Source of the DNA: Burkholderia seminalis DSM 23518
GTDB taxonomy: Bacteria; Pseudomonadota; Gammaproteobacteria; Burkholderiales; Burkholderiaceae
Direction: 5' to 3'
Assembly: GCF_902832885.1 (NCBI RefSeq)
Contig: NZ_CADFDK010000025.1
Location: 1 to 41,633 of the forward strand
Length of the DNA: 41,633 nt
Shown here: piece after piece, positions 1 to 14,454 of the stretch
Layout: the number at the start of each line of letters is the position of its first letter
Numbering within the stretch: the first letter of the stretch is position 1
Program-made: the position numbers and the translations under genes
The notes under the pieces: generated by a model
Database searches by the model: none
The model's input: only the letters and a program-made list of their open reading frames with translations
What the model was told of the DNA's origin: nothing

Positions 1-119
1 CCGTGCGCGAAGTTGATGATGCCGAGAATGCCGTACACCATCGTGTAGCCCAACGCGATGATGGCGTAGACACTGCCGAGCACCAGCCCGTTCAGAATTT
101 GTTGGACAAAAATGTCCAT
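1..119 (-). CDS. livH: LivH-type ABC transporter permease, N-terminus (partial)
   Basis: Only the first 39 or so codons lie in the window; the gene runs off the left edge. The translation begins MDIFVQQILNGLVLGSVYAI and continues through ALGYTMVYGILGIINFAHG. This is the characteristic first segment of inner-membrane permeases of the branched-chain amino acid (HAAT) ABC family. It follows the substrate-binding protein gene on the same strand after a 74-bp gap, so it is the next gene of that transport operon. LivM, LivG and LivF genes would be expected further left. What the system carries cannot be told from this fragment. Confidence 0.85.
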   Translation of the reverse strand, partial: MDIFVQQILNGLVLGSVYAIIALGYTMVYGILGIINFAH

Positions 120-147
120 GTCACTCCCAAGAGTTGATTACTATTGG

Positions 148-169
148 ATCGGCATGCGAGAACGCCGAT
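148..169 (-). repeat. Small inverted repeat between binding-protein gene and livH
   Basis: ATCGGC (148-153) and GCCGAT (164-169) form a 6-bp stem with a 10-base loop in the gap between the two transport genes. Intergenic hairpins at this point in transport operons often protect the upstream binding-protein message. Here that role is inference and the stem is short. Confidence 0.3.
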
Positions 170-193
170 TACTCGTCGTTCTCGCTCGAAGTA

Positions 194-1330
194 TCACTGC
201 GTCGGACTGAGGTTATCGCCCGACACTTTGTACACGGTCACCGGCGCATCAATCCATTCACCGTTCTTGTCGAACGCGACCTTTCCGACCAGCGTCGAGA
301 ACTGGATTTGCTTGAGCATCGGAACGAACTTTTCGGGGTCCGTCGAATTCGCCGCCTTCATCGCCTGCGCGACCACCATCGTGGCCGAATAGAATGCCGG
401 CGAGTAAACATCGTTCTTCACACCGAATTGCTTTTCATACCGTGCCGCGAATTCCGGACCACCGGGCAACGTCGCGAGCGGTGCGCCGCCTTCGGCGCAA
501 TACCCCCGCCCATTCAGCGTTCCGGCAGCCAGCTTCGGCATATCGACCGAGCAGATCCCGTCCCCGCCTAGCACCGGAACCGCAAGACCCAACTGCTTGG
601 ACTGTCGCCCGATGGCGGCTGCCTGCGCGTAGTACCCGCCGTAGAAGATCGCGTCCGGGCGTTGAGCCTTGATGTGCGTCAGAATCGCGTTGAAGTCCGT
701 TGCCTTGTCGTTGGAATATTCCCTGGCGACGACGTCGATACCGTTCTTCTTCGCCGTCGCGGCAAACACGTCAGCTACGCCTGATCCGTATGCCGTGCGA
801 TCGTCGATCACCGCCACGCGTTTTGCATGCAATACCTTTGCCGCATATTCGGCCATGCGTGCGCCCATCACGTTGTCATTGGCCGCAAGCCGGAAGACAT
901 ACGGGAAGCTCTGCTGCGTGATCGCCGGATTTGAAGCGGCGCCGGTAATCATCGGAACACGCGCATTGTTGTAGATGCGGGAGGCGGGAATGGTCACGCC
1001 GGAGTTGTAGTGGCCGATGACCGCCTTCACACCCGAATCGACGAGCTTCTGAGCGACAGAGACGCCCGTTTTGGGATCTGCAGCATCGTCCTCGGACAGC
1101 ATTTCGAACTTGATGGATTGACCGTCGACGACGATCGGCGTCCGATTCAGCTCTTCAATCGCCAGCCGCACGCCTCGCTCATCGTCCTTGCCGAAATTCG
1201 ATTGGCCGCCCGTCAACGGGCCCGCGACACCGATCCTGACAGTCTGATCCGCATGCGCGGCAGAAATCAATGCGGGGCTGATTCCCCCGAGCAACAGGGT
1301 GGCGATGGTGAGTTTGTGACAGTACTTCAT
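194..1330 (-). CDS. Branched-chain amino acid-type ABC transporter substrate-binding protein
   Basis: A 378-residue periplasmic binding protein of the LivK/HAAT family. The chosen ATG is followed by a signal peptide (MKYCHKLTIATLLLGG, then a small-residue stretch ending AAHA), and a GGAGG lies just upstream. The mature part starts TVRIGVAGPLTGGQSNFGKD, the typical first strand of the family. The ligand-binding lobes follow, with GHYNSGVTIPASRIYNN and TDFNAILTHIKAQRPDAIFY segments. An in-frame extension upstream of the signal peptide is rejected as non-coding. The gene follows the class II aldolase gene on the same strand and precedes livH, so transport and aldolase are probably co-transcribed. 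HAAT proteins bind amino acids, amides, urea or aromatic acids; the ligand here is unknown. Confidence 0.92.
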   Translation of the reverse strand: MKYCHKLTIATLLLGGISPALISAAHADQTVRIGVAGPLTGGQSNFGKDDERGVRLAIEELNRTPIVVDGQSIKFEMLSEDDAADPKTGVSVAQKLVDSGVKAVIGHYNSGVTIPASRIYNNARVPMITGAASNPAITQQSFPYVFRLAANDNVMGARMAEYAAKVLHAKRVAVIDDRTAYGSGVADVFAATAKKNGIDVVAREYSNDKATDFNAILTHIKAQRPDAIFYGGYYAQAAAIGRQSKQLGLAVPVLGGDGICSVDMPKLAAGTLNGRGYCAEGGAPLATLPGGPEFAARYEKQFGVKNDVYSPAFYSATMVVAQAMKAANSTDPEKFVPMLKQIQFSTLVGKVAFDKNGEWIDAPVTVYKVSGDNLSPTQ

Positions 1331-1427
1331 GTGAAACCTCCGTGGCGTGGGCAAATTGGGTAGTCGACATGGTTGCAGCGTCAGGAGCGCGGGCACGAGA
1401 TGGCCGATTGCGCTTGACGTGGGATAG

Positions 1428-2201
1428 TCAGTCCCGCCAGTGCGGTTGTGCAGATTCCAGAAGCCGCTTGAGCGAGCGAAAATGAAGTCGTGCATATTCA
1501 TCTCGATCACGGTCGAATTCACGAGAAGTCCGACGAGCCAGTTCGTCGCTCACGCGCTTAAGCGGACGCCCGCTCGACATCGCGAGGATTTGGATCTGGG
1601 CGGCTCGTTCGAGGTAGTAGAGATCGTCGAGTGCCGCGGCAATCGAAGGGCCCGTGACTATCACGCCGTGGTGCTCGAGCATCAGGACACGCTTGGAAGA
1701 CAACGCGGCGGCAATCCGGTCTCCTTCCTGTTCGCTGAGTGCAAGTCCTCCGTATTCCGAATGATCACGGTCGTAGGCAATGCGATCGAAAAAGCGAAGG
1801 CTGTTCTGATGGCACATTTCGAGGCGAAAGCCGTCGAGCGTCGTCAGTGCCGTGGCATAAGGCATGTGCGTATGAAGTACGCATGCGGCATCAGGCGAGG
1901 CGCGATGAACTCGGGAATGGATGTTGAGCGCGGTTTTCTCGACTCGTCCGACTCCGTCGATTACCGAGCCGGCGGAATCGACGAGCAGCAAATCAGCCGG
2001 TCGGATCTCTTCGAAGCTGAGTCCGAACGGATTGATCAGATACGTTTCCCGACTGCCCGGGAGCAAGAGACTGAAATGGTTGCATGTGCCCTCGTGGAAG
2101 CCGAGGCGCGCGGCGATGCGAAATGCCGCGGCCAGATCGTCGCGAGCATTCGCGAGCTCATCGGTCTTCGATCCAGGAAAAAAATCGGTGGCGTGTGCCA
2201 T
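1428..2201 (-). CDS. Class II aldolase/adducin family protein
   Basis: A cytoplasmic zinc enzyme of the fuculose-phosphate aldolase/adducin fold, 257 residues. Visible hallmarks are GFHEGTCNHFSLLLPG near residue 40, the metal-binding pair in VLHTHMPYATAL (about residue 110), and the third metal histidine in LEHHGVIVTGPSIAAAL (about residue 178). The family contains retro-aldolases, decarboxylases (OtnC/LtnC) and epimerases, so the reaction cannot be fixed. The ATG at 2201 is preferred; a TTG at 2243 would add 14 residues, and neither has a strong ribosome-binding site. It is the first gene of the leftward transport operon and is divergent from the MocR regulator, which suggests it cleaves or decarboxylates the imported compound or a derivative. 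Confidence 0.85.
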   Translation of the reverse strand: MAHATDFFPGSKTDELANARDDLAAAFRIAARLGFHEGTCNHFSLLLPGSRETYLINPFGLSFEEIRPADLLLVDSAGSVIDGVGRVEKTALNIHSRVHRASPDAACVLHTHMPYATALTTLDGFRLEMCHQNSLRFFDRIAYDRDHSEYGGLALSEQEGDRIAAALSSKRVLMLEHHGVIVTGPSIAAALDDLYYLERAAQIQILAMSSGRPLKRVSDELARRTSREFDRDRDEYARLHFRSLKRLLESAQPHWRD

Positions 2202-2258
2202 GGGGTCGTCCAGTGCAAGTATGCGTATGCGATTCCCCTTCAATGTAGTGAATCAAAC

Positions 2259-2277
2259 CTGCACGGATACATGTACA
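2259..2277 (+). promoter_or_regulatory. Putative MocR operator, copy 1
   Basis: CTGCACGGATACATGTACA. A copy matching at 14 of 19 positions lies 58 bp to the right in the same orientation, and a third in reverse orientation lies upstream of the kinase gene. It sits between the divergent aldolase and regulator genes, close to the aldolase start. MocR-type regulators usually bind direct repeats in such gaps. Assignment to this regulator is inference. Confidence 0.55.
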
Positions 2278-2316
2278 CTTTAAAACGAGGGTGACTAACT
2301 GTATTGGGTTCGTCGC

Positions 2317-2335
2317 CTGCACGGTTATATGGGCC
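2317..2335 (+). promoter_or_regulatory. Putative MocR operator, copy 2, over the regulator's -10 region
   Basis: CTGCACGGTTATATGGGCC, with the first 15 bases closest to copy 1. It covers a plausible -10 (TATATG, 2326-2331) that is 16 bp downstream of TTGGGT (2304-2309). Binding here would let the regulator repress its own gene. This is read from sequence only. Confidence 0.5.
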
Positions 2336-2362
2336 GGTATTTTTGATGTGATAGGTGCGGCG

Positions 2363-3766
2363 ATGAAACCGATACTGACGCTCGATCCCCAGGGGGAATC
2401 GTCCCTGGTTCAACAGATCGTGGCCGGGCTGACGGCAACGGTGAACGAAAGAACCTGGCGGTCCGGGGCCAAGGTTCCGAGCATCCGCGTATTCGCCGAG
2501 GCACATGGCGTGTCGACATTTACGGTCGTCGAAGCATACGATCGCCTGGTGGCGCAAGGCGTCTTGATGGCACGGCGTGGATCCGGCTTTTATGTCGCGG
2601 ATCGAAGCCGTAGCGAGATACCTCCGACCATCGAGAAACTCAACGAGGAATTCACGAACGGATGGTCGCTGCGTAACGTTCTGGAGGGAACGGAAGGCAC
2701 GATTCACGCGGGCTCGGGATGGATTCCAGAGGCATGGTTCGACGCGGACGGCCTTGGGCGGGCGCTAAGACAGGTAGCGGCGCAGCCGCGATCTCTATTG
2801 GGGTACGGGCACGCAAAGGGGTATGAGCCGTTGCGTGAGCAAATCGTGCGGCAACTTGCGGAACACGAGATCGAGGCAAGTTCCACGGGCATCGTCACTA
2901 CGCTGGGTGCCAACCAGGCGCTGGATCTCGCCATTCGTCATCTTACGCGCGAGGGCGATACCGTGCTGGTAGACGAGCCCTGCTACAGCGATCTGCTCGT
3001 TGCATTGCGATTGCGCAGGATCAAGGCAGTCGGGATTCCGATGACACCTACCGGTCCGGACGTCGTTTCGATGGAGCAGGCGTTCGAGACTCATCGCCCC
3101 AAAGTGTTCTTCACCAATACGCGGCTGCATAATCCGACCGGTGCGAGCTACAGCTCGGCATCGGCATTCAAGGTCCTGAAGCTTGCCGAGCGCTACGACT
3201 GCATCATCGTCGAGGACGACGTCTCTGCCGGTCTGGTGTCCGGAAATTCAGTCGCGCTCGCGTCCATGGATCAATTGAAACGAGTGGTCTACGTCGGCAG
3301 CTTTTCAAAGACCATCGGTGCCGGCCTGCGCGTGGGATTCGTGGCCGCGGAGCCCGCGCTTCTCGAGGGTTTGCTTTACCAGAAGCTGGTGTCCGGAATG
3401 TCGACGCCGACGATCACGGAGCAACTGGCACATGCAGTGCTGTCCGAAGGACACTTCAGGAAGCAGGCCGAGCAATTGCGCGATCGTCTCGCTACCGCGC
3501 AGGAACGGACCTGTCGCCGGCTTGAATCGATCGGTTTTGAAGTGTTCTGCGAACCTCGATCCGGAATGTTCGTATGGGCACGGCCCGCGGGAATCAATTG
3601 CGATTCAGCCGAACTCGCTGTACGTGCGGTCGACCACAAGATTCTTCTGGCGCCAGGCAATCTTTTCTACGCCACCAATCCAACCAGTAGTTGGCTGCGA
3701 TTCAATGTTGCGCACTGCAACTTCGATCGTCTTTATGCGTTTCTGGCGCATGCCATTACACACTGA
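2363..3766 (+). CDS. MocR-type (GntR/aminotransferase) transcriptional regulator
   Basis: A 467-residue fusion of an N-terminal GntR winged helix (about residues 10-80: VPSIRVFAEAHGVSTFTVVE, then the RRGSGFYV wing) to a fold-type I aminotransferase-like domain. PLP-site motifs are intact: HNPTG (N257), IIVEDD (about 285) and SFSKTIGAGLRVGF with the Schiff-base lysine near residue 316. MocR proteins (GabR, TauR, PdxR, EnuR) sense amino compounds through PLP, so an amino-acid-like inducer is likely. The ATG at 2363 is chosen because homologous proteins begin close to MKPILTLDPQG; an upstream GTG at 2291 is in frame but would run through the promoter and operator. It is divergent from the aldolase/transport operon and precedes the kinase-enolase-OCD genes. 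Confidence 0.9.
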   Translation: MKPILTLDPQGESSLVQQIVAGLTATVNERTWRSGAKVPSIRVFAEAHGVSTFTVVEAYDRLVAQGVLMARRGSGFYVADRSRSEIPPTIEKLNEEFTNGWSLRNVLEGTEGTIHAGSGWIPEAWFDADGLGRALRQVAAQPRSLLGYGHAKGYEPLREQIVRQLAEHEIEASSTGIVTTLGANQALDLAIRHLTREGDTVLVDEPCYSDLLVALRLRRIKAVGIPMTPTGPDVVSMEQAFETHRPKVFFTNTRLHNPTGASYSSASAFKVLKLAERYDCIIVEDDVSAGLVSGNSVALASMDQLKRVVYVGSFSKTIGAGLRVGFVAAEPALLEGLLYQKLVSGMSTPTITEQLAHAVLSEGHFRKQAEQLRDRLATAQERTCRRLESIGFEVFCEPRSGMFVWARPAGINCDSAELAVRAVDHKILLAPGNLFYATNPTSSWLRFNVAHCNFDRLYAFLAHAITH

Positions 3767-3930
3767 CCCGGTCTCGTCACGAAGCCGCCAGGGAATCGGC
3801 GTCGCGCAACGAACCGGTGATCTCTCGAACCCACTCGAGTCGGCACGCGCATGAGCTAGCGTCCACGCCGTGCGCGGATCCAAGTGTGCAGGCAACAAGG
3901 CCACTACAGTTATCTGACGATCCACCGCAG

Positions 3931-3949
3931 TGTGCATGTATCTGTTTGG
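3931..3949 (-). promoter_or_regulatory. Putative MocR operator, copy 3, upstream of the kinase gene
   Basis: On the + strand TGTGCATGTATCTGTTTGG. Its reverse complement matches operator copy 1 at 14 of 19 positions, including the block GATACATG. It lies 74 bp before the kinase start in an otherwise featureless 257-bp gap, and gives the rightward genes their own candidate control site. Confidence 0.45.
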
Positions 3950-4023
3950 CTCGATTGCATAAATTGACGGACAACACGTCGTTCATGATTTCGATGCGGC
4001 GGTAACTCCGATCAATTTTCAGC

Positions 4024-5433
4024 ATGAAAAAGATACGAAATTACGAAGCACTCCTCTCGAATGGCGTCGTTTCGTCACGGCAGATCGTACTCGAGATCGC
4101 GGACCGGACACTCGACAGGCTCGACAGCTACCAGCGAATTCGAAGCATCATGCGCATGGAAGGTAGCGTACTGCATATCGGAACGCGCTCGTGGGACCTT
4201 TCGCGCAAGCGAAACGTCTATCTGGTCGGCGCTGGCAAGGCTTGCAACCACATGGCAATGGCAGTCGACCATGTGTTGGGTGATCGCCTGACGCACGGTA
4301 TCGCCATCGTGAAAATCCGGGAAGAATCGGACCGTTTCAACAAGACCGAGGTGTTCGTCGGCGGGCATCCCCTCCCGAACGAAGAAGGCCATCGGGCATC
4401 GAAGCAAATCATCGAACTCGTCGATCAGGCCGGACCAGACGACTTGTTCATCGCGGTGATCAGCGGCGGAAGTTCGGCGCTCATGTCCTGTCCGATCGAA
4501 GGAATCAGCCTGCAGGACGAGATCGATACCACGGATGTGCTGCTGAAATCCGGTGCAGGCATTTACGAGATCAATGCCGTGCGCCGCCACATTTCGGCCT
4601 TGAACGGCGGGATGTTGGCGCAGCGCATACAGGACACGGGTGCCGAACTGATCGGTTTCGGCATCAGCGACGCGGTCGGATCGCCTGCCACGAGTGACAT
4701 TTCGGTGCCCTACGCCGCCTACAAAAGCACGCCGATCGGTCCCGACATGACGACCCTGGACGACGCTCGCGCCACGATCATCAATCGCAACGTGGCCGAT
4801 CGCCTGCCCAAAAGCGTTGTCGACTATCTGATGAACGCAGGCCCCGACGCGGAGACCCCGAAGGCCTTTCCGGACAATACCTACTTCCTGCTCAACACGC
4901 TGCCCGACTCCTGCATTTACGCCAAGGCAGTCTGCGAGGAGATGGGTATCCCCGCAATGATCGTGTCGTCGTTCCTTGAAGGAGAAAGTCGCGACGCCGG
5001 CACCTTCTTCGCGTCGATGGCGCGCGAAATCCAGACGTACGGCAACCCGATCAAGCCCCCTTGCGTGCTTCTCAGCTCCGGTGAGGTGACGACGCTTATC
5101 GACGATAACAGCGTGATCAAGGGGCACGGCGGGCCTGGTCAGGAAATGGCCGCAAGTTTCGCTATCGCGGCGGCCAAAACGACGGGCGCCTGCCTGCTGT
5201 CGATCGACAGCGAAGGCACGGACGGCACGGCGACGGTGGCGGGAGGCATGACGGACTCGACCAGCTTCACCGCGGCTGCCGCAAAGGGAGTCAACCTCTA
5301 TCAGGCACTGCGCGAGCACAGCTGCTTCGAAGCACTCGAGTCGATCGACTCCGCCATTTTCACCGGCAACACCGGTACCAACCTGTGTGACTTGAACATC
5401 CTTTATGTTCCTGAACCGAACGGGAGCAAGTGA
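4024..5433 (+). CDS. Glycerate 2-kinase family protein (DUF4147-MOFRL)
   Basis: A 469-residue member of the class II glycerate 2-kinase family (TtuD/GckA, sometimes annotated hydroxypyruvate reductase). The N-terminal nucleotide-binding domain shows VYLVGAGKACNHMA, GGHPLPNEEGH and ISGGSSALMSCPIEGISL. A central block holds GAGIYEINAVRRHIS and GFGISDAVGSPAT. The C-terminal MOFRL domain has LLSSGEVTTLI, GHGGPGQEMA and DSEGTDGTATVAGGM. The family phosphorylates D-glycerate at O2. The GRNQE motif of classical members is GPGQE here and the SDV-G-D loop is altered, so the true substrate may be a glycerate analogue. No clear ribosome-binding site precedes the ATG. The stop codon is one base before the start of the enolase-like gene, so the two are translationally linked and probably consecutive steps. 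Confidence 0.85.
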   Translation: MKKIRNYEALLSNGVVSSRQIVLEIADRTLDRLDSYQRIRSIMRMEGSVLHIGTRSWDLSRKRNVYLVGAGKACNHMAMAVDHVLGDRLTHGIAIVKIREESDRFNKTEVFVGGHPLPNEEGHRASKQIIELVDQAGPDDLFIAVISGGSSALMSCPIEGISLQDEIDTTDVLLKSGAGIYEINAVRRHISALNGGMLAQRIQDTGAELIGFGISDAVGSPATSDISVPYAAYKSTPIGPDMTTLDDARATIINRNVADRLPKSVVDYLMNAGPDAETPKAFPDNTYFLLNTLPDSCIYAKAVCEEMGIPAMIVSSFLEGESRDAGTFFASMAREIQTYGNPIKPPCVLLSSGEVTTLIDDNSVIKGHGGPGQEMAASFAIAAAKTTGACLLSIDSEGTDGTATVAGGMTDSTSFTAAAAKGVNLYQALREHSCFEALESIDSAIFTGNTGTNLCDLNILYVPEPNGSK

Positions 5434-5434
5434 C

Positions 5435-6709
5435 ATGGAAGACAAGATCACATCCGTCCGGGCACTTCAGATCATCGATTGCAAGTGCCGGCCCGCAGTC
5501 GAAGTCGAGGTGCGCACCGAAAGCGGTGCGGTTGGTCGAGGTGCGGCACCCACCGGCACTTCCGTCGGGATGCACGAATCGTTCGTCCTGCGGGACGGCG
5601 ATCCAGCGACCTACGACGGGCTCAGTGTTCATAACGCCGTCGACAACGCGGTCAATGTAATTGGTCCGGCGCTGATCGGCATGAACGTGTTCGATCAGCG
5701 AGCGATCGACGAAAAAATGATCGCGCTCGATGGCACACCCAATAAGTCCCGCCTCGGCGGAAACACGATTTACTCGGTATCCATCGCGGCATTCCGTACG
5801 GCGGCGAATGCCCGATCGATTCCGCTGTACGCTCACATCGCCGGCCGCGACATCAGGACCGTGCCGGTCCCATGCTTCAACGTGATCAACGGCGGACGAT
5901 ACGATGGGCTCACCCAGCCGTTCAACGAGTTCCTGATCGTGCCGTACGGCACTGACAGTGTCGACTTCGCCATCGAAATGGCGGTGGCCGTGTTTCAGAA
6001 GCTTGGCCATGTACTGACCGAATATCTGGGCCACAAACCTCAAGTCGCCAGTTCCTATGGCTACGCCGCCCCTTCGGATGACCCGGAAGTCGTGTTGACG
6101 CTGATGCAAAAGGCCATCGACGCCTGTGGCTATACAGGCCGGATCGCGTTTGCGCTCGATTGCGCGTCAAGCGAGATGTACGACAAGGAAACCCGCACGT
6201 ATCTGCTGAAAGGCAAACGGGTGTCCACCTCCGAACTCATTGCCTATGCCCGCTTCCTGACCGAGAAATTCAATTTGGTCTTCATCGAGGATTTGCTCGA
6301 TGAAAACGACTGGGAAGGTTACAGCACGGCGGTTCGAGAAATTCGACGATCGATCATTCTGGGCGACGATCTCACGGTCACCAGTCTCCCGTTACTTGAG
6401 CGGGCTTTCGAGACTCGTGCCGTGGACGGGTTCGTGTTGAAGCCGAACCAGGTCGGAACGATCACGGAGGCGATGGACGCCTATCGATTTGCGCTGCAAC
6501 ACGGAATGATCGCGGTGCCCTCGGGCCGCTCCGGTGGTGTCGTGGATGACGTCGTGATGGATTTTTCGGTCGGCCTCGAAGTTCCGCTCCAGAAGAATGG
6601 CGCGCCCCGTTCCGGCGAGCGGATCGAAAAGCTCAACTTTCTGTTGCGGGCAAATGCGCGAATCCCGGGTTGCCGCCTCTACGACATTTCACCACTTCTC
6701 CGATTCTGA
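5435..6709 (+). CDS. Divergent enolase paralogue
   Basis: A 424-residue protein that aligns end to end with phosphopyruvate hydratase. Metal ligands are kept: D242 in ALDCASSEMY, E285 in FIEDLLDE and the aspartate pair 311-312 in GDDLTVT. The catalytic lysine is kept (K336 in VLKPNQVG), as is the second lysine (K387 in QKNGAP). Missing or changed are the DEGG loop carrying the acid/base glutamate (replaced near residues 206-210 by SSYGY), the histidine of SHRSGE (SGRSGG at 363-368), the mobile loop SGAST (TGTSV at 40-44) and the loop histidine (Y156). It is therefore unlikely to be a housekeeping enolase. GGGAG sits 9 bp upstream of the ATG. It follows a glycerate-kinase homologue by one base, suggesting it dehydrates a 2-phosphorylated acid made by that enzyme. 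Confidence 0.85.
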   Translation: MEDKITSVRALQIIDCKCRPAVEVEVRTESGAVGRGAAPTGTSVGMHESFVLRDGDPATYDGLSVHNAVDNAVNVIGPALIGMNVFDQRAIDEKMIALDGTPNKSRLGGNTIYSVSIAAFRTAANARSIPLYAHIAGRDIRTVPVPCFNVINGGRYDGLTQPFNEFLIVPYGTDSVDFAIEMAVAVFQKLGHVLTEYLGHKPQVASSYGYAAPSDDPEVVLTLMQKAIDACGYTGRIAFALDCASSEMYDKETRTYLLKGKRVSTSELIAYARFLTEKFNLVFIEDLLDENDWEGYSTAVREIRRSIILGDDLTVTSLPLLERAFETRAVDGFVLKPNQVGTITEAMDAYRFALQHGMIAVPSGRSGGVVDDVVMDFSVGLEVPLQKNGAPRSGERIEKLNFLLRANARIPGCRLYDISPLLRF

Positions 6710-6770
6710 CCACTGAGTCGGGATCGAAGCTTGACACCCAACATCTTCCTTTTTCGACGAGGTCTGCACC

Positions 6771-7889
6771 ATGTATCCCAAAATCGACTTTCTGTACCTT
6801 TCCGAGCCGGACATGATCGCAGTTGGCGTGCTGGATGCCGCGCGCTGCGTGTCCGTATGCGAGGAGACATTCGGACTCCTCGGCAGAGGCGACTATCTGA
6901 TGGGTGGCGCCAATCACAATAACCACGGAATGAACATCGTCTTCCCGAAAGAGACGAAGTTCCCGAACATGCCGGTTGCCGGTCCGGACCGCCGCTTTGC
7001 TGCAATGCCCGGTTATCTGGGCGGTCGCTTCGACGTGTGCGGCAACAAATGGTACGGATCGAATCACGCCAATGCCGAGAAAGGCCTGCCGCGCTCGATC
7101 TTGACCATGATGCTCAATGACAAGGACACGGGCGCGCCGCTGGCGCTGATGTCGGCGAACTTGTTGAGCGCGGCCCGAACCGGAGCCGTGCCGGGAGTGG
7201 CGGCAAAGTATCTAGCCAACCAAGATGCGAGAAGTATGTCTGTTATCGGTTGCGGCCCGATCAACAAGGCGTGCTTCACCGCGATCATGACCCAGCTCGG
7301 CTCGATCCAGCACGTCGTCTGTTTCGACGTCTTCCTCGACAAGGCGAACGAGTTCGCCGGTTGGGTTCAGCAAACGTACGGGATTTCCGCCACCGGTACC
7401 GATGAGGCCGAGAAAGGCTTCCGTGATGCAGATGTCATCACCGTGGCAGCGTCGCGTCTGAAGCCGCTTTATTTCAAGGACGAATGGATCAAGGAGGGCG
7501 CGACCATTCTCGTCTCAGGCCCGTTCAATACCGACGAGTCGTTCCTGACCGGCGCCAGGATCGTATACGACCATACCCCGCTGCAGGAAGCCTATGTCGA
7601 GGACGCAATCGCATCGGGCAACAAGGAAGGCTACTACAGCAGCGTCATTGGCGGCCCGTTCTTCCGTCTGATCGATGCAGGCAAGCTGCCCGCCCTGCCT
7701 GACTCGACCAGCCTCGGTCATGTCGTGAATGGCGACAAGCCGGGCCGGGAGAGCACGAAGGAGCGTGTCATCTTCATAGCATGCGGGATGGCGGTTTTCG
7801 ACATCAGCTGGGGGACGGAGCTCTATAACAACGCGCGGGAAAGGAAGATCGGCACGTCCCTCAATTTGTGGGAAAAGCCGGCTCTCTGA
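6771..7889 (+). CDS. Ornithine cyclodeaminase/mu-crystallin family protein
   Basis: A 372-residue NAD(P)-binding protein. An N-terminal substrate domain (residues 1-130) has GGRFDVCGNKWYGSN, holding the lysine expected to bind a substrate carboxylate, and LLSAARTGAVPGVAAKYLA. A Rossmann region starts SVIGCGPINKACFTAI (about residue 158). It most resembles the subgroup annotated as 'tyramine oxidase subunit B' (from memory, MxxxIDFLYLSEPDMIAAGV start and NHNxHG motif), whose function is not well established. Characterised relatives act on amino/imino acids: ornithine cyclodeaminase, alanine dehydrogenase, EutC and the iminosuccinate reductase BhcD. It is the last recognised gene of the rightward group, 61 bp after the enolase paralogue. 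It supports an amino-acid substrate for the cluster. Confidence 0.8.
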   Translation: MYPKIDFLYLSEPDMIAVGVLDAARCVSVCEETFGLLGRGDYLMGGANHNNHGMNIVFPKETKFPNMPVAGPDRRFAAMPGYLGGRFDVCGNKWYGSNHANAEKGLPRSILTMMLNDKDTGAPLALMSANLLSAARTGAVPGVAAKYLANQDARSMSVIGCGPINKACFTAIMTQLGSIQHVVCFDVFLDKANEFAGWVQQTYGISATGTDEAEKGFRDADVITVAASRLKPLYFKDEWIKEGATILVSGPFNTDESFLTGARIVYDHTPLQEAYVEDAIASGNKEGYYSSVIGGPFFRLIDAGKLPALPDSTSLGHVVNGDKPGRESTKERVIFIACGMAVFDISWGTELYNNARERKIGTSLNLWEKPAL

Positions 7890-7973
7890 TCGGGTCGCCG
7901 TGAATCGCACTCCCGGCAATTGAGCCGCCTGGATCCCCCCGGAAAGTGCCGAGCGCCAGTGTCGGGGCTTTCC

Positions 7974-8002
7974 TGAGCCTTCGGCCATAGGCCGAAGGCT
8001 CA
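7974..8002 (+). terminator. Perfect 13-bp hairpin after the OCD gene
   Basis: TGAGCCTTCGGCC and GGCCGAAGGCTCA pair perfectly around the loop ATA, 85 bp after the OCD stop codon. There is no T-run after the stem, so it is only terminator-like; it may act as a transcript 3' end or a boundary element. A second, shorter pair GGAAAG/CTTTCC (7941-7946, 7968-7973) abuts it. Confidence 0.5.
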
Positions 8003-8422
8003 TGCCGGGCGAATGCTGGCGAGCGTCGAGGTTTGGGACTGCTTGCACCAAGTACTCTTGGCAAAGCTGCGTGCAGCGGACCGCCTCGATTGGTCACGTT
8101 GATCTGAGTAACCGTGTTGAATGACAAGCTGTGAGAGGTTGATTTTGAGCATTCAGGTGTTAGCCACCCCTCGTCATTTACATCGCTCGCGACGCACTTT
8201 TTCCACTTCGACGCAATGATAAGTTTGCGCACTTCATTGAATTTCAGAATAAAAACCTCAGGACCAGCGTGAATTCGCGAATACGACGAAAATTCCACAT
8301 TGATATGAATTTTTATTCAAAGACAACATATCGAGACTGCGGACATCTTTTCTGAGAAACAACAACACGCACCACACCGAGCCCCCAAGCAGCACCCCCC
8401 CGTACCGGCATCCATCCACATA

Positions 8423-8442
8423 ACTGTACCGGTACTGTACAG
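8423..8442 (+). promoter_or_regulatory. Operator-like repeats upstream of the LysE-type gene
   Basis: Two ACTGTAC units start at 8423 and 8434, exactly 11 bp apart, with the palindrome GTACCGGTAC (8426-8435) across them. They lie about 60-75 bp before the start of the exporter gene. One-turn spacing suggests a regulator dimer site. The regulator is not adjacent and is unknown. Confidence 0.45.
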
Positions 8443-8499
8443 AAAACCGTCGCTAAACTGACCTCCATCCCAGTCCAGAACAGAAATGGAGAATCCGCG

Positions 8500-9117
8500 A
8501 TGGAATTCCTCACCCTCAGCGCGTTGCCCGCCGGCATGCTGTTCGCGCTCGTCACGTCGATCACGCCCGGCCCGAACAACACGATGCTGCTCGCATCCGG
8601 CGTCAACTTCGGTTTCCGCCGCACGATGCCGCACCTGTTCGGCATCAGCATGGGCGTCGCGATCCTGATGCTCAGCGTCGGCTTCGGCCTCGGCGAGGCG
8701 TTCAAGCGCCTGCCGCTGCTGTATACGATCCTCGAGGCCGCCAGCGTCGCGTACCTGCTGTACCTCGCGTGGCGCATCGGCACGTCGGGCGAGGTGAAGG
8801 CGCACGGCGCCAAGCCGCGGCCGATGACGTTCGTCGAAGCCGCCGCGTTCCAGTGGGTCAACCCGAAAGCCTGGATGATGGTGCTGACCGCCGCGACGAC
8901 GGTCCGCCTGTCCGCCGACTACGGGATGAACGCCGCATGGATGTCCGTCGTGTTCATCCTGATCGGCTTCCCGTGCATCTGCCTGTGGGCCGCGTTCGGC
9001 CTCGGCCTGCGCCGCTTCCTGTCGAATCCCCGCGCGCTGCGCATCTTCAACGTGACGATGGCCGTGCTGCTGATCCTGTCTCTGTATCCGCTCGTCGCGC
9101 ACCTGCTGCCGCAGTAA
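8500..9117 (+). CDS. LysE/RhtB-family amino acid exporter
   Basis: A 205-residue inner-membrane protein with about six hydrophobic segments. The family signature SITPGPNNTMLLASGVNFGFRR lies at residues 20-42, and FQWVNPKAWMMVLTA near residue 127 corresponds to the NPK motif of RhtB-type exporters. A GGAG precedes the ATG by about 8 bp. Members export amino acids or homoserine lactones by proton exchange; the substrate here is unknown. It is the first gene with the high-GC codon use of the rest of the window. A two-site operator-like element lies upstream. Confidence 0.9.
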   Translation: MEFLTLSALPAGMLFALVTSITPGPNNTMLLASGVNFGFRRTMPHLFGISMGVAILMLSVGFGLGEAFKRLPLLYTILEAASVAYLLYLAWRIGTSGEVKAHGAKPRPMTFVEAAAFQWVNPKAWMMVLTAATTVRLSADYGMNAAWMSVVFILIGFPCICLWAAFGLGLRRFLSNPRALRIFNVTMAVLLILSLYPLVAHLLPQ

Positions 9118-9225
9118 GCGCTCACGGCGCGCCCGTTGAGATTCGCGCAAGGCAGGCGTACCCTTTTGGTACGGGCGCGCGCAACCGCTTCGCCGGTTGC
9201 GCCGCAGCTGTCGGGAGACAAGCCG

Positions 9226-9474
9226 ATGAAGCCACTGCTGAGGGCGGGCGAACACATCGAGGGCGTGCACTGGATCGCCGAGTATCACCCGCTCACGCAC
9301 GATATCCGCGTGCTGCGCGAGAACATCGAAGTCGGCACTTACTGCGCGCCGCCGACACTGTTCGGCGACGAGGAAGAGATGGGCGCCGCGAACCACGACG
9401 ATCATCGCGGCCGGGAGGCCGCACTGCGCGCGTATCTGCGCAATTTCGTCAAGGAACACGACGCGGAAGAATAG
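9226..9474 (+). CDS. Small hypothetical protein
   Basis: An 82-residue acidic soluble protein (MKPLLRAGEHIEGVHWIAEY, ending EHDAEE) with no domain I recognise and no membrane segment. GGGAG lies about 9 bp before the ATG, which supports this start over an upstream in-frame ATG at 9136 that would add arginine-rich sequence unlike a protein start. It stands alone between the exporter and the convergent pcaK, with a shared hairpin terminator beyond its stop. Confidence 0.6.
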   Translation: MKPLLRAGEHIEGVHWIAEYHPLTHDIRVLRENIEVGTYCAPPTLFGDEEEMGAANHDDHRGREAALRAYLRNFVKEHDAEE

Positions 9475-9500
9475 CGGCCCGAGCGGTGCCGCTGGAAGCG

Positions 9501-9523
9501 GGGCCGGCGCAACGCACCGGCCC
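9501..9523. terminator. Bidirectional terminator-like hairpin
   Basis: GGGCCGG (9501-9507) pairs with CCGGCCC (9517-9523) around a 9-base loop, in the 58-bp gap between the rightward small gene and the leftward MFS gene. No clear T-run follows on either strand. Confidence 0.45.
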
Positions 9524-9532
9524 TTGCGTCGC

Positions 9533-10891
9533 TCAATGCCCGAGCGACTCGATCTTGCCGGCCGGCTGCGCGACGCCATGCGGCCGCGCCGTCTGCTTGA
9601 TCAGCAACGCGATGCACGCGAGCACGCCCGCAACGGCGATCGTCGCGAACACGCCCGCGAACGAGAAGTGCCGGCGCGTCAGTTCGGCGACGAGGAACGA
9701 TCCCGCGATCCCGCCGAAGCGGCCGACGCCGAGCATCCATGCGACGCCCGTGCCGCGCCCTTCGGTCGGATAGAACGCGGCGGCCAGCGCCGGCATCGAC
9801 GATTGCGCGGTGTTCATCAGCACGCCGGCCACGAACACGATCAGCACGAGCAGCCCGACGTTGCCGGCCGCCTGCCCGATCGCGTACACGCTCACCGCCG
9901 TCAGCGCGTAACACACGGCGATCACGCGGTTCGCGTTGAAGCGGTCCATCAGCACGCCGCACAGCACGGCGCCCACGCCGCCGAGCGGGAACAGTGCCGA
10001 GATCAGCGTCGCGCTCTTCGGCGTCAGCCCCGCATCCTTCAGCAGGATCGGCATCCAGTTGATCGACGCGTAGAAGATCACGAGGCCCATGAAGTACGCG
10101 AGCCACAGCATCACCGAGCCGACGATGTACGAGCGCGACAGCACGACGCCGAGGCCCTTGCTGCCGGTTTGCGGCGCGGCTTCGGTCATCGCGAACGAGC
10201 CGGCGTTCAGCGCGTCGCGCGAGATGCGCGCGAGCGTGGCGCGGATCCTGTCGATGGACTGACCGCTCGCGACCATGAAGCGCACCGATTCCGGCATCTT
10301 CAGCAGCAACAGCACGCCGAGCAGCAGCGGCGTCACGCCGCCGAGCACCAGCACGCTGCGCCAGCCGAAATGCGGAATCATCCACGCGGCCAGGAAGCCG
10401 CCGAACGCGGCGCCAAGCGGGAAGCCGCAGAACATCAGGTTGATCACGGTCGCACGGCGCTTGTCCGGGCAGAACTCGCCCATCATCGTGACCGCGTTCG
10501 GCATCGCCGCGCCGAGCCCGACGCCGGTGATGAAACGCAGGATCGTCAGATGCCCGATCGTGTTCGAGAAGGCGGACATCAGGCACGCGACGCCGAACAG
10601 GAACACCGAGCCGAGCAGCAGCGAGCGGCGCCCGAGCCGGTCGGACAGCGGGCCCGACACGAGCGCGCCGCACGCGAGGCCGAACAACGCGGCACTCAGC
10701 ACCGGGGCGAGATCGGGTTTGGTCAGGTTCCATTCGCCGAGCAGCGACGGCGCGATGAAACCGATCGCGGCCGTATCGAAGCCGTCGAGCAGCACGATCA
10801 CGAAACACATGAGGAACACGAGCCATTGAAAGCCGCCGAACGGCTGCTCGTTGATGAAGGTCTGGACATCGACCACGGGTGCGCGATTCAT
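9533..10891 (-). CDS. pcaK: MFS aromatic acid:H+ symporter (PcaK-like)
   Basis: A 452-residue inner-membrane transporter with about 12 hydrophobic segments. CFVIVLLDGFDTAAIGFIAPSL in helix 1 (DGFDTA) and GPLSDRLGRRSLLLGSV after helix 2 are hallmarks of the AAHS family, which takes up 4-hydroxybenzoate, protocatechuate and similar acids. The ATG at 10891 has AGGAG about 8 bp upstream; the longer frame is rejected. It is the last gene of the pob/pca block and probably imports the block's substrate. A structured 198-bp gap separates it from pcaC, so its expression may be set separately. Confidence 0.85.
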   Translation of the reverse strand: MNRAPVVDVQTFINEQPFGGFQWLVFLMCFVIVLLDGFDTAAIGFIAPSLLGEWNLTKPDLAPVLSAALFGLACGALVSGPLSDRLGRRSLLLGSVFLFGVACLMSAFSNTIGHLTILRFITGVGLGAAMPNAVTMMGEFCPDKRRATVINLMFCGFPLGAAFGGFLAAWMIPHFGWRSVLVLGGVTPLLLGVLLLLKMPESVRFMVASGQSIDRIRATLARISRDALNAGSFAMTEAAPQTGSKGLGVVLSRSYIVGSVMLWLAYFMGLVIFYASINWMPILLKDAGLTPKSATLISALFPLGGVGAVLCGVLMDRFNANRVIAVCYALTAVSVYAIGQAAGNVGLLVLIVFVAGVLMNTAQSSMPALAAAFYPTEGRGTGVAWMLGVGRFGGIAGSFLVAELTRRHFSFAGVFATIAVAGVLACIALLIKQTARPHGVAQPAGKIESLGH

Positions 10892-11010
10892 CGCGAGTCT
10901 CCTGGATATAGGTACGAGCAAGACGGCATGAAGCCGTGCCCTTTCTTTGTTCGCGCACCGGCCATCCGGTGCGCCGCGTGCCGATGCTCTGCCGGCACGT
11001 TCATCGATCC

Positions 11011-11048
11011 CGTCGCGCGACCCGCTTGCGACAGCAAGCCGCGCGACG
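11011..11048 (-). repeat. Long bulged hairpin between pcaC and pcaK
   Basis: An outer 9-bp stem (CGTCGCGCG 11011-11019 with CGCGCGACG 11040-11048) and an inner 6-bp stem (GCTTGC 11024-11029 with GCAAGC 11034-11039) share a GACA loop. One 4-base bulge (11020-11023) interrupts the stem. It lies in the transcribed gap and could attenuate readthrough from pcaC into pcaK or stabilise the pca message; it has no T-run. Confidence 0.5.
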
Positions 11049-11089
11049 GCGGCCGGCCGCCCTCAGCCGGCCGCGCCTGACCGGCCGTC

Positions 11090-11476
11090 TTACGCGGCCG
11101 CGTCCTGTTCCTTGAAGATCTTGTCCGCGAGATGGAACGCGGAATTCGCGGCCGGCACGCCGCAATAGATCGCGGTCTGCAGCAGCACTTCCTTGATCTG
11201 GTCGCGCGTCACGCCGTTGTTGCGCGCGGCGCGCAGGTGCAGCGCCAGTTCCTCGCCGCGGTTCAGCGCGACCATCATCGCGATGGTCAGCAGGCTGCGC
11301 GTATGGCGCGGCAGGCCGTCGCGCGTCCAGATCTCGCCCCATGCATAGCGCGTGATCAGGTTCTGGAATTCGTCGGTCACCTCGGTGCGGTTCTCGAGCG
11401 AGCGGTCGACGTGCGCGTCGCCGAGCACCGCGCGGCGCACCTTCATCCCTGCTTCGTAACGTTCCTGGTCGTCCAT
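11090..11476 (-). CDS. pcaC: 4-carboxymuconolactone decarboxylase
   Basis: A 128-residue cytoplasmic enzyme that converts 4-carboxymuconolactone to 3-oxoadipate enol-lactone in the protocatechuate branch of the beta-ketoadipate pathway. It covers the full family length and starts RYEAGMKVRRAVLGDAHVDR. The conserved core FQNLITRYAWGEIWTRDGL and ARNNGVTRDQIKEVLLQTAIYCG, with its catalytic region, is intact. It lies 10 bp downstream of pcaD on the same strand and is a stand-alone gene, not the PcaCD fusion (PcaL) of some actinobacteria. Confidence 0.95.
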   Translation of the reverse strand: MDDQERYEAGMKVRRAVLGDAHVDRSLENRTEVTDEFQNLITRYAWGEIWTRDGLPRHTRSLLTIAMMVALNRGEELALHLRAARNNGVTRDQIKEVLLQTAIYCGVPAANSAFHLADKIFKEQDAAA

Positions 11477-11486
11477 CGTCGTTACC

Positions 11487-12272
11487 TCATGCGTTCAGGA
11501 AATCGAGCAGCGCACGGTTGAAGCCGTCGGTGCACTCGATGTTCGAAATGTGCGCGGCGTCGAATTCGACGTGCAGCGCACCGGGAATCGCGGCAGCAAG
11601 CGCGCGGCCCTGGTCGGGCGGCGTCGACATGTCCTTCGCGCCGGTCACGACGAGCACCGGCAGCGTGATGCCCTTCACCTCCTCGCGCAGGTCGGCGGCG
11701 TTCAGCGCGTCGCAGTTCGCCGCGTAGCCGTCCTTGTCGGTATGCACGAAGGTGTCGCGGATCGCGTCGAACAGGCGCGGCTCGCGTTCGACGAATGCGT
11801 CGGTGAACCAGCGCGGCAGCACGGCGTCGGCGAGCGCGGCCATGCCTTCGGCACGCGCCTTCTGCGCACGCGGCACCCACACTTCCGGCGAACCGATCTT
11901 CGCGGCGGTATTCGACAGCACCGCGCGCACGATGCGTGACGGGTAGCGCGCGGCGAGCGCGGCGCCCGTCAGCCCGCCCATCGAAATCCCGCAGAAATGC
12001 GCGCAGTCGATGCCGACGTGGTCGAGCAGGCCGATCACGTCGCCGGCGAGCTGCTCGATCGCGTACGAACCGGCCGGCGCGTCGGAATGACCGTGGCCGC
12101 GCGTGTCGTAGCGCAGGATGTTGAAGTGCTGCGTGAGCGGGCGGATCTGCGGCGCCCACATCTGCAGGTCGGCGCCGAGCGAGTTCGAGAAGACGAGCCA
12201 CGGCGCGTCGGCGCGCGCGGCACGGTCGATCCGGTAATGCAGTTTCACGCCGTTGACAGTGGCGAAAGGCAT
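11487..12272 (-). CDS. pcaD: 3-oxoadipate enol-lactonase
   Basis: A 261-residue alpha/beta hydrolase that opens 3-oxoadipate enol-lactone. The nucleophile elbow GISMGG carries the serine near residue 98. YDTRGHGHSD precedes it, VVTGAKDMSTPP carries the acid, and FDAAHISNIE holds the catalytic histidine. The start ATG at 12272 shares one base with the pcaB stop (TGATG on the coding strand), showing translational coupling; the longer open frame upstream is a shadow of pcaB. Confidence 0.95.
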   Translation of the reverse strand: MPFATVNGVKLHYRIDRAARADAPWLVFSNSLGADLQMWAPQIRPLTQHFNILRYDTRGHGHSDAPAGSYAIEQLAGDVIGLLDHVGIDCAHFCGISMGGLTGAALAARYPSRIVRAVLSNTAAKIGSPEVWVPRAQKARAEGMAALADAVLPRWFTDAFVEREPRLFDAIRDTFVHTDKDGYAANCDALNAADLREEVKGITLPVLVVTGAKDMSTPPDQGRALAAAIPGALHVEFDAAHISNIECTDGFNRALLDFLNA

Positions 12273-13645
12273 CAATGTTCTCCTGGTTGTTGCGCGCCCG
12301 CATGCAGCGCGAGCACGGCGTCGACATAGGCCTGCGCCTCGCCGACGTAATGTGCGGGATCGAGCAGCCGCGCGAGCGCGTCGCGCGACAGGTGCGCCGA
12401 CACGGTCGCATCGGCGGCGAGCACGTCGAACAGCGTCGCGCCGGTGCGCACCGCTTCCTTCGACGCATGCTCGACGACATGGTGCGCATCGAGGCGGCCG
12501 ATGCGGTCGCCGAGCGCGAGCATCACGGCTTCGCCGAGGATCAGCCCGTGCGTGAGGTCGAGGTTCGCGGCGAGGCGTTCGGTATTGACGTCGAGCCCCG
12601 CGACGATCTGCGCGATCTGCGCGAGCGCGCCGCCCGTCAGGCGCGCGAGGTCGGGCAGCGCATCCCATTCGGCCTGCCAGCCGCCGAGCGCGCGTTCGTG
12701 CTCCTGCACCATCCCCGCGAATACGGTCGCGACGAGGCCCGGCGCGCGCACCGCGGCGGTCAGTACGGCCGCGCAGCCGACCGGGTTGCGCTTGTGCGGC
12801 ATCGTCGACGAGCCGCCCTTGCCGGCGGCCGCCGGTTCGCCGAGCTCGCCGACTTCGGTCTGCATCTGCAGCGACACGTCGCGCGCGATCTTGCCGAGCG
12901 TGCCCGTCAGCATCCCGAAGCAGGACGCGGCTTCCGCGATGCGGTCGCGCTGCGTATGCCACGGCACGGCCGGCGCTTCAAGCCGCAGGTCGGCCGCGAG
13001 CGCGGCAGTGACGCCGCTCGCCTGCTCGCGCAGGCTCGCGAGCGTGCCGGCCGCGCCGCCGAACTGCAGCACGAGCGCCCGCGCGCGCAATTCGGCGAAG
13101 CGCGCGCGATGGCGCAGCAGCGCGTCGAGCCACTGGGCGAATTTCAGGCCGAGCGTGATCGGCAGCGCCTGCTGCAGCCACGTGCGGCCGATCATCGGCG
13201 TCGCGCGGTGCGTGCGCGCGAGCGCCGCGAGCGACGCGCACGCTTCGTCGAGCATCGGTTCGAGCACGTCGAGCGTGTCGCGCAGCTGCAGCACGGTCGC
13301 GGTATCGATGATGTCCTGGCTCGTTGCGCCCCAATGCACGAACTTCGCGGCCTCGGGGTCGTCGGCCTTCACCTGCGCGGTGAGCTGCTTGACGAGCGGA
13401 ATCGCGAGATTGCCGCCGAGCGCCGCGCCATGCGCGAGCGCGTCGGCGTCGAGCCGGCCGGCGTCGCATGCGCGTTCGATCGGCGCGACCGCGGTGGCGG
13501 GAATCACCTGCCGCGCGGCGAGCGCGCGCGCGAGCGCGGCCTCGACGTCGAGCATCCGCTGGATCGTCGCGCGGGGCGACCAGATCCGGTTGAGCGGCTC
13601 GGTGCCGCAGATGAGGGAGGTCAGGCGGGCGCTGTCTTCAAGCAT
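12272..13645 (-). CDS. pcaB: 3-carboxy-cis,cis-muconate cycloisomerase
   Basis: A 457-residue member of the fumarase/aspartase superfamily that lactonises 3-carboxy-cis,cis-muconate. The superfamily signature GGSSTMPHKRNPVGCA is present near residue 270, with WGATSQDIIDTATVLQ and GRTWLQQALPITLG further upstream. The start MLEDSARLTSLICGT at 13645 is preferred to an upstream in-frame codon because family members begin there. It overlaps pcaD by one base and follows pcaJ after 88 bp. Confidence 0.93.
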   Translation of the reverse strand: MLEDSARLTSLICGTEPLNRIWSPRATIQRMLDVEAALARALAARQVIPATAVAPIERACDAGRLDADALAHGAALGGNLAIPLVKQLTAQVKADDPEAAKFVHWGATSQDIIDTATVLQLRDTLDVLEPMLDEACASLAALARTHRATPMIGRTWLQQALPITLGLKFAQWLDALLRHRARFAELRARALVLQFGGAAGTLASLREQASGVTAALAADLRLEAPAVPWHTQRDRIAEAASCFGMLTGTLGKIARDVSLQMQTEVGELGEPAAAGKGGSSTMPHKRNPVGCAAVLTAAVRAPGLVATVFAGMVQEHERALGGWQAEWDALPDLARLTGGALAQIAQIVAGLDVNTERLAANLDLTHGLILGEAVMLALGDRIGRLDAHHVVEHASKEAVRTGATLFDVLAADATVSAHLSRDALARLLDPAHYVGEAQAYVDAVLALHAGAQQPGEH

Positions 13646-13733
13646 GGCATCGGATTGGGGAAACGGCGTGTGCCTATTGTCCACCCAAGCGGGCCGGCCT
13701 GCGCGCGAGCGCACGCGCCGGCACGCCGGCGGT

Positions 13734-14390
13734 TCAGGCAGCCGCCTTCTGCGTCGCGTCGATCAGCGGCACGCCGGTCAGCTTCTGCAGTTCGTCGAAC
13801 GACAGGTCGGTGAAGATCTCGCTCACCGCGAGGCCGTCGGCCGTCACGTCGAGCACCGCGAGATCCGTATAGATACGGCTTACGCATTGCACGCCGGTGA
13901 CCGGATACGAGCACTGCGCGACGATCTTGCTTTCGCCCTGCTTCGTCAGGTGCTCCATCATCACGAACACCTGCTTCGCGCCGATCGCGAGATCCATCGC
14001 GCCGCCGACGGCCGGAATCGCATCGGGTGCGCCCGTATGCCAGTTCGCGAGGTCGCCGGTCGCCGACACCTGGAACGCGCCGAGCACGCAGTAGTCGAGA
14101 TGGCCGCCGCGCATCATCGCGAACGAATCGGCGTGGTGGAAATACGCGCCGCCGGTGAGCAGCGTCACGTGCTGCTTGCCGGCGTTGATCAGTTCGTCGT
14201 CTTCCTCGCCCGGCGCGGGCGCGGGGCCCATGCCGAGCAGGCCGTTCTCGCTGTGCAGGAAGATTTCCTTGCTCGGGTCGAGGTGGTTCGCCACCAGCGT
14301 CGGCACGCCGATACCGAGGTTCACGTACGCGCCTTCGGGGATGTCCTGGGCGACGCGCTTGGCCATTTCATCGCGGGTCAGTCGTTTCAT
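13734..14390 (-). CDS. pcaJ: 3-oxoadipate CoA-transferase subunit B
   Basis: A 218-residue beta subunit of succinyl-CoA:3-ketoacid CoA-transferase. It starts MKRLTRDEMAKRVAQDIPEG, followed by YVNLGIGVPTLVANHL and then HSENGLLGMGPAP, which holds the catalytic glutamate of the family (SENG). The start at 14390 has AGGAG upstream on the coding strand. It pairs with the A subunit 64 bp upstream. The enzyme activates 3-oxoadipate with CoA from succinyl-CoA. A pure acetoacetate transferase (ScoB) is an alternative on sequence alone, but the operon context favours PcaJ. Confidence 0.92.
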   Translation of the reverse strand: MKRLTRDEMAKRVAQDIPEGAYVNLGIGVPTLVANHLDPSKEIFLHSENGLLGMGPAPAPGEEDDELINAGKQHVTLLTGGAYFHHADSFAMMRGGHLDYCVLGAFQVSATGDLANWHTGAPDAIPAVGGAMDLAIGAKQVFVMMEHLTKQGESKIVAQCSYPVTGVQCVSRIYTDLAVLDVTADGLAVSEIFTDLSFDELQKLTGVPLIDATQKAAA

Positions 14391-14454
14391 GTCGGGTCTC
14401 CTGGCGACCGGGGCTGACGCTTCAGCGCTTGCTCCGGTCCCATACAAAGTTCGG

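Follow-up and report, generated by a model that had tools for sequence, protein, structure and literature searches.

Enolase (EC 4.2.1.11), which turns 2-phosphoglycerate (2PG) into phosphoenolpyruvate (PEP), ranks with the most strongly conserved enzymes and varies very little in function; no catabolic role beyond glycolysis is known for an enolase proper. Class II glycerate 2-kinases, the MOFRL kinases, are described under the type names GckA, TtuD and GLYCTK. The characterized members convert D-glycerate to 2PG (PMC2063504). In the window analyzed here, the complete 41,633-base contig NZ_CADFDK010000025.1 from the 7.97-Mb genome of Burkholderia seminalis DSM 23518, homologues of these two enzymes are encoded next to each other and are followed by a protein of the ornithine cyclodeaminase (OCD)/mu-crystallin family. 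We consider it very likely, with a probability of roughly 0.9, that these genes constitute a distinct module that does not catalyze the route from glycerate through 2PG to PEP. The three genes are as follows.

4024-5433, plus strand: kinase of the glycerate 2-kinase class II family, altered subfamily (DUF4147, PF13660, 2.6e-58; MOFRL, PF05161, 3.4e-23)
5435-6709, plus strand: enolase-like protein (Enolase_C, PF00113, 3.6e-58; Enolase_N, PF03952, 1.8e-44)
6771-7889, plus strand: OCD/mu-crystallin family NAD(P)-type enzyme (OCD_Mu_crystall, PF02423, 4.1e-59; PRK06199, 497.3 bits against a cut-off of 362)

The first two genes are one base apart, as a preliminary description of this DNA had noted: the kinase stop codon (TGA, 5431-5433) is followed by a single C and then by the ATG at 5435, with GGGAG upstream. 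This ATG is most likely the start of the enolase-like gene; the mechanical start of its open reading frame (ORF) lies at 5405 and overlaps the kinase.

The enolase-like protein contains Enolase_N and Enolase_C at full length. Because TIGR01060 calls it a phosphopyruvate hydratase (357.9 bits, cut-off 300), annotated genomes and metabolic models can end up with a spurious second enolase as long as its clade is not separated. Together with its relatives it forms a single clade, linked to a kinase, and shares with enolase the domains, the metal ligands and the base. In yeast numbering, Asp246, Glu295, Asp320 and the proton-abstracting base Lys345 (given below as Lys346) are kept in 40/40 of the aligned proteins; Glu168 and the Lys and Arg residues holding the carboxylate and phosphate are also kept, as are Arg375 (40/40) and Ser376 (37/40), which in enolase hold an alpha phosphate. 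Rows from L007, L026, L042, L045 and L076 were dropped from this alignment for a stop in the aligned stretch, probably where the alignment runs past the gene end, as was L086 for a split match. The clade differs from enolase at three positions that are unchanged in 38/38 canonical enolases. The catalytic acid Glu211 is replaced in all 40 proteins (Ser in 39, Ala in 1), His373 is Gly throughout, and His159 gives way to Tyr (34), Asn (5) or Cys (1); Tyr occupies position 218 in every one. Judged by these residues the protein is a non-canonical enolase, which bears out the earlier assignment. The same replacements speak against the plain dehydration of a 2-phosphoglycerate-type acid that had been suggested, as the acid needed for water loss is absent from all 40 proteins.

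By its motifs, the kinase is altered in parallel with the enolase-like protein. It shares the DUF4147 and MOFRL domains with class II glycerate 2-kinases but its identity to seven canonical MOFRL kinases, taken from five of the genomes searched, is 29-33%, and its scores of 172.1 and 128.8 bits fall below the two glycerate 2-kinase equivalog cut-offs of 550 and 670. In all 47 members aligned, GGRNxE carries P where the canonical kinases have R, TGPTxTN has N in place of P, SGGG has S in place of G, and the SDG motif has E in place of D; the kinase and OCD alignments exclude matches that covered less than 85% of the query or contained a stop. Because Glu211 and His373 are lost and the kinase is altered alongside, the module probably does not lead from glycerate to PEP. 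Of 14 genomes examined, 13 also have a canonical enolase, the exception being the metagenome assembly G249, so that a second enzyme for 2PG to PEP seems unnecessary. It is very improbable that the chemistry is ordinary and that the pair simply adds another glycerate kinase and another enolase, specially regulated, for the production of 2PG and PEP: the replaced acid, the changed kinase motifs with their low scores and the canonical enolase alongside all argue against it. A Pandoraea genome holds a third enolase homologue (G251:C35:21346-22599), 47% identical to the canonical enolase of the window's genome.

The association of the three genes extends well beyond this contig. A scan of one genome per species, covering the best 80 of 178 relatives, kept 79 loci, 40 with close enolase-like relatives (52-87% identity) and 39 with ordinary enolases (38-40%). 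The close-relative loci and additional ones make up a tally of 48, of which 33 are proteobacterial and 15 are not. These loci are not independent (L018 and L085 are nearly identical, L034 and L098 belong to one genome) and several are short; L101 to L104 stand outside the tally, the first as a duplicate of L015 and the others as loci fetched for the OCD gene. The kinase gene adjoins the enolase-like gene in 48/48 loci, and an OCD homologue lies within the fetched DNA in 42/48 (32/33 proteobacterial, 10/15 other); the loci belong to Pseudomonadota, Bacillota, Planctomycetota and Synergistota. A single open frame of 895-926 residues encodes both kinase and enolase-like protein in five of them, namely L030 (Paenibacillus rhizosphaerae), L034, L035, L037 and L097. 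A kinase or OCD homologue was found in 0/39 of the control loci around canonical enolases (E <= 1e-8).

Whole genomes and plasmids give the same picture. Of 200 sampled genomes of the window's family, a number that includes its own, three carry every one of the enolase-like, OCD and kinase genes, and at the cut-offs used the remaining 197 carry none; for G123, which belongs to the three, the kinase match is limited to residues 1-265, on another contig and with one stop. An OCD homologue is present in 14 of 15 chosen genomes, including those of L028 and L031, where none adjoined the pair. The nine plasmid records with the kinase are the same nine that carry the enolase-like gene, and the ten with an OCD gene at a minimum of 60% identity are those nine and one from Paraburkholderia sabiae. 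The kinase, the enolase-like protein and the OCD protein are a conserved unit. Among the papers listed by searches for this gene set or its components, we found no description of it in the open-licence literature, to which the search was confined (subscription papers and preprints lay outside it), in line with the earlier statement that no such pathway was known.

Variants of the module were also seen. One genome carries a second copy (L098, G242:C14), with the OCD match in two pieces and a partial kinase match. In L040 (8526-12574) and L100 (6916-11289), the same kinase (65-66%) is accompanied by two tandem, further diverged enolase-like genes with Gln or Gly at position 373 and Lys396 lost, and no OCD homologue was found in either genome. 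Beside these variants lie TctC, TctA and a weak Lar_N match at one locus and a Na+/H+-antiporter-family protein at the other.

The window's enolase-like protein shares 77-82% identity with its counterparts in Pantoea (L026), Mesorhizobium (L007) and Sinorhizobium kostiense (L023), whereas the canonical enolases of these genomes are only 66-67% identical to that of the window's genome. In the nearer relatives G118 and G253 the order is reversed, at 99% for the canonical enolase and 84% for the enolase-like protein. The gene is rare, occurring in 3/200 family genomes, 4/295 in the order of G242 and 1/247 in the family of G245, with the centre genome included each time. The first 8 kb of the contig has a GC content of 56-61%, which falls to 50% at 8001-8500 and is 65-71% from there on. 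From this contrast in identity, the rarity and the lower GC content, the module is best read as one that moves horizontally. For an enzyme family as uniform as enolase, an acid-less, mobile clade beside its own kinase points to an unassigned reaction and probably to an unassigned nutrient.

The third protein belongs to the OCD/mu-crystallin family by both the PF02423 profile and its fold. Its predicted model, weak at residues 43-86, is closest to the family members SbnB, alanine dehydrogenase, iminosuccinate reductase (BhcD) and pyrroline-2-carboxylate reductase. PRK06199 is the only model over cut-off among the 13 listed, where no ornithine cyclodeaminase or other named OCD-family equivalog cut-off was passed. 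On the P. sabiae plasmid (L104, 4700-15783), the OCD gene is found near a threonine-synthase-like pyridoxal phosphate (PLP) enzyme, an ABC transporter and D-serine ammonia-lyase. More distant relatives, at 43-45% (L105, L106 and L107), carry the annotation 'tyramine oxidase subunit B' and have Rid-family and FAD oxidoreductase genes as neighbors; no paper on that name was found in the open-licence literature.

Neighboring genes offer clues to the substrate. In the 33 proteobacterial loci, with flanks of up to about 10-12 kb and an identity of at least 35%, we counted HyuA or HyuB in 14, xylose-isomerase-like, DAO-family oxidoreductase and shikimate-dehydrogenase-like proteins in 16 each, proline-racemase-family proteins in 12 and 15, RidA-type proteins in 8 and glutamate dehydrogenase in 6. 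None of these had a match in the 39 control loci. A sugar-acid dehydratase was found in 4/33. The counts for amino-acid and sugar ABC ATPases are nonspecific, with matches in 11/39 control loci each. HyuA and HyuB are closest to caprolactamase subunits, but their scores of 525 and 346 bits stay below the cut-offs of 1000. The neighbors found in Planctomycetota and some Bacillota include TRAP or TctABC transporters and Lar-type homologues; the Lar homologue is closest to a malate racemase model, below its cut-off. Because the transporters vary by lineage, the three enzymes probably handle a common intermediate that is reached from several starting compounds.

It can tentatively be hypothesized, at rather less than even odds, that the module acts on a 2-phospho-hydroxy acid with an amino leaving group while the OCD enzyme acts on an imine. 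The kinase would phosphorylate the hydroxyl adjoining the carboxylate of a hydroxy acid other than glycerate, and the enolase-like enzyme would bind the product through its conserved metal sites. Lys346 would then take the alpha proton, and the beta substituent, most likely an amino group, would be expelled without protonation by the lost Glu211. The candidate intermediate is a phosphorylated isoserine- or beta-hydroxyaspartate-type compound, from which an enol-phosphate (PEP or a substituted PEP) and ammonium would be formed, and the OCD enzyme may make, reduce or cleave an imine on the way into or out of this step. An amine leaving group seems to fit best because of the company of OCD, RidA-type and glutamate dehydrogenase genes and the loss of Glu211. 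The nitrogen chemistry of the preliminary description is judged likely, with the OCD protein now part of the conserved unit, and the isoserine- and hydroxyaspartate-like substrates that it proposed are still candidates.

A more specific and more doubtful proposal is that the MOFRL kinase and the acid-less enolase could be a PLP-free 'phospho-ammonia-lyase' system, converting a 2-hydroxy-3-amino acid of the isoserine or hydroxyaspartate type to a phosphoenol compound. If so, the ATP spent by the kinase would be recoverable through pyruvate kinase, and an enolase proper would have a catabolic role outside glycolysis, carried by gene transfer between bacteria associated with plants and with the gut. 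Several known systems can be set beside it. Pairs of amino-alcohol kinases and ammoniophospholyases (5-phosphohydroxylysine) are alike by function only, in that a hydroxyl is phosphorylated and the neighboring amine eliminated, but the ammoniophospholyases are PLP enzymes, unlike the enolase-like protein. Methylaspartate ammonia-lyase eliminates ammonia within the enolase superfamily, and the CPEP synthase of phosphinothricin biosynthesis is an enolase homologue with another reaction.

Several observations weigh against amine loss coupled to an OCD enzyme. Three genomes (G246, G301 and G322) hold kinase and enolase-like genes with no OCD homologue at E <= 1e-40, and L099, from G322, has the usual enolase-like residues. 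Conversely, the P. sabiae plasmid carries the OCD gene (72%), and no kinase or enolase-like gene was found on that record. The neighbors at some loci look nitrogen-free (TRAP, TctABC, Lar-type, sugar-acid dehydratase and sugar ABC). Among the subfamily-specific positions near Glu211 and His373, no gained acidic residue that could hold ammonium was seen, although Glu168 is kept. Finally, GGPN is also present in 1x3l, a solved homologue of the kinase (hypothetical protein PH0495), and the change from Arg to Pro alone is therefore no proof of a new substrate.

After amine loss, beta-phosphate loss would appear to be the main alternative and a nitrogen-free hydroxy-dicarboxylate the next. In the former, which we regard as unlikely, the kinase would phosphorylate the beta hydroxyl of a beta-hydroxy-amino acid and the enolase-like enzyme would remove the alpha proton and expel the phosphate to leave an enamine or imine for the OCD enzyme to reduce or a RidA-type protein to hydrolyze, an ATP-driven counterpart of dehydratase and imine reductase pairs such as BhcB/BhcD. 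A phosphate leaving group likewise needs no acid, and the proximity of the OCD model to iminosuccinate and pyrroline-2-carboxylate reductases, the RidA-type neighbors in 8/33 loci and the company of OCD, Rid and FAD oxidoreductase genes in distant relatives would all be accommodated. However, the residues that hold an alpha phosphate in enolase, Arg375 and Ser376, are kept in 40 and 37 of the 40 proteins, and cheaper PLP dehydratases exist. The kinase family also acts beside the carboxylate, with 2PG as its product (PMC2063504).

A substrate free of nitrogen, either a hydroxy-dicarboxylate or a sugar acid that resembles tartrate, malate or tetronate, on whose hydroxyl or keto group the OCD enzyme would act unless it served a side step, could account for the TRAP and TctABC transporters and Lar-type racemase homologues of Planctomycetota and Bacillota, the resemblance of Lar to malate racemase (though below cut-off), the sugar-acid dehydratase, xylose-isomerase-like (4/33 and 16/33) and sugar ABC neighbors, and the OCD-less pairing of kinase with two enolase-like genes in L040 and L100. 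We nevertheless hold this substrate to be improbable, since an OCD gene is present in 42/48 loci, RidA, glutamate dehydrogenase and amino-acid-type genes lie nearby and no OCD-family enzyme is known to act on hydroxy acids. It is also conceivable, but decidedly improbable, that the enolase-like protein is an epimerase or racemase of a 2-phospho acid or a non-catalytic regulator of the kinase; base and metal ligands are kept while leaving-group residues are lost, and Tyr218 could be a second acid/base, but the conserved metal site speaks against a non-catalytic role and no epimerase is known among enolases proper.

Other starting compounds were considered alongside amine loss from a phosphorylated hydroxy acid. 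Sulfolactate, from which sulfite elimination would yield PEP, is not favored: no sulfite exporter or oxidizing enzyme occurs in the chosen sample of neighbors, and the enolase-like positions listed show no conserved gain of a basic residue. Hydroxyproline genes appear to lie near the module in Burkholderiaceae, since one proline-racemase-family protein passes the 4-hydroxyproline epimerase cut-off. This epimerase, the DAO-family protein and a second proline-racemase-family protein have no homologues in the 15 non-proteobacterial loci, and the hydroxyproline genes are therefore treated as a neighboring pathway rather than as direct use of 4-hydroxyproline by the module. Opine or Amadori compounds are possible substrates, in which case the OCD enzyme would open a secondary amine. 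Some source organisms among L003-L042, L083-L086 and L104 came from mimosoid legumes (for part of them recorded as Leucaena, Calliandra and Mimosa), a possible hint that the compound is a non-protein amino acid of plants.

The remaining features of the locus are the following.

194-1330, minus strand: Liv-type periplasmic binding protein (Peripla_BP_6, PF13458, 2.4e-58)
1428-2201, minus strand: class II aldolase family protein (Aldolase_II, PF00596, 7e-45; PRK06486 over cut-off)
2363-3766, plus strand: MocR-type regulator (GntR and aminotransferase domains, PF00392 and PF00155)
1-8500: lower-GC segment carrying the genes (56-61% GC, with 65-71% to its right)

The preliminary description had taken these three genes and the module as one regulon of six. 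The families given for all six are confirmed by ORFs and family profiles, but the neighborhood as a whole does not recur: the module does, and the MocR regulator, the Liv-type binding protein and the aldolase are local additions. At a minimum of 35% identity, MocR homologues occur in 13/33 proteobacterial loci and binding protein homologues in 3/33 (84% beside MocR in L014, 39-40% in L009 and L011); aldolase homologues are found in 3/33, at 45-47%, and all three genes are absent from the 15 other loci. The regulator is a local partner in Burkholderiaceae, and the idea that the aldolase cuts the carbon skeleton finds no support among the relatives.

The starts of these three genes are the first plausible ATG, chosen by hand. 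The regulator has the GntR helix-turn-helix fused to a fold-type I aminotransferase domain that defines a MocR protein, with no named MocR equivalog over cut-off among the 25 models listed of 80. The binding protein is the only Liv-type component on the contig, which ends 193 bases past its gene; because the window is the whole contig, any permease and ATPase genes would lie past this left end. Scans for promoters and terminators found no more candidates than in shuffled sequence, repeats in 1-9000 are short and imperfect and were judged to be chance, and no tRNA was found in the window. To the right of the lower-GC segment (8500-14447) lie a LysE-type protein (8500-9117), an MFS transporter (9533-10921, minus strand) and carboxymuconolactone decarboxylase-, PcaD-, PcaB- and CoA-transferase-like genes, which, with translations judged by eye, have the look of a protocatechuate pathway.

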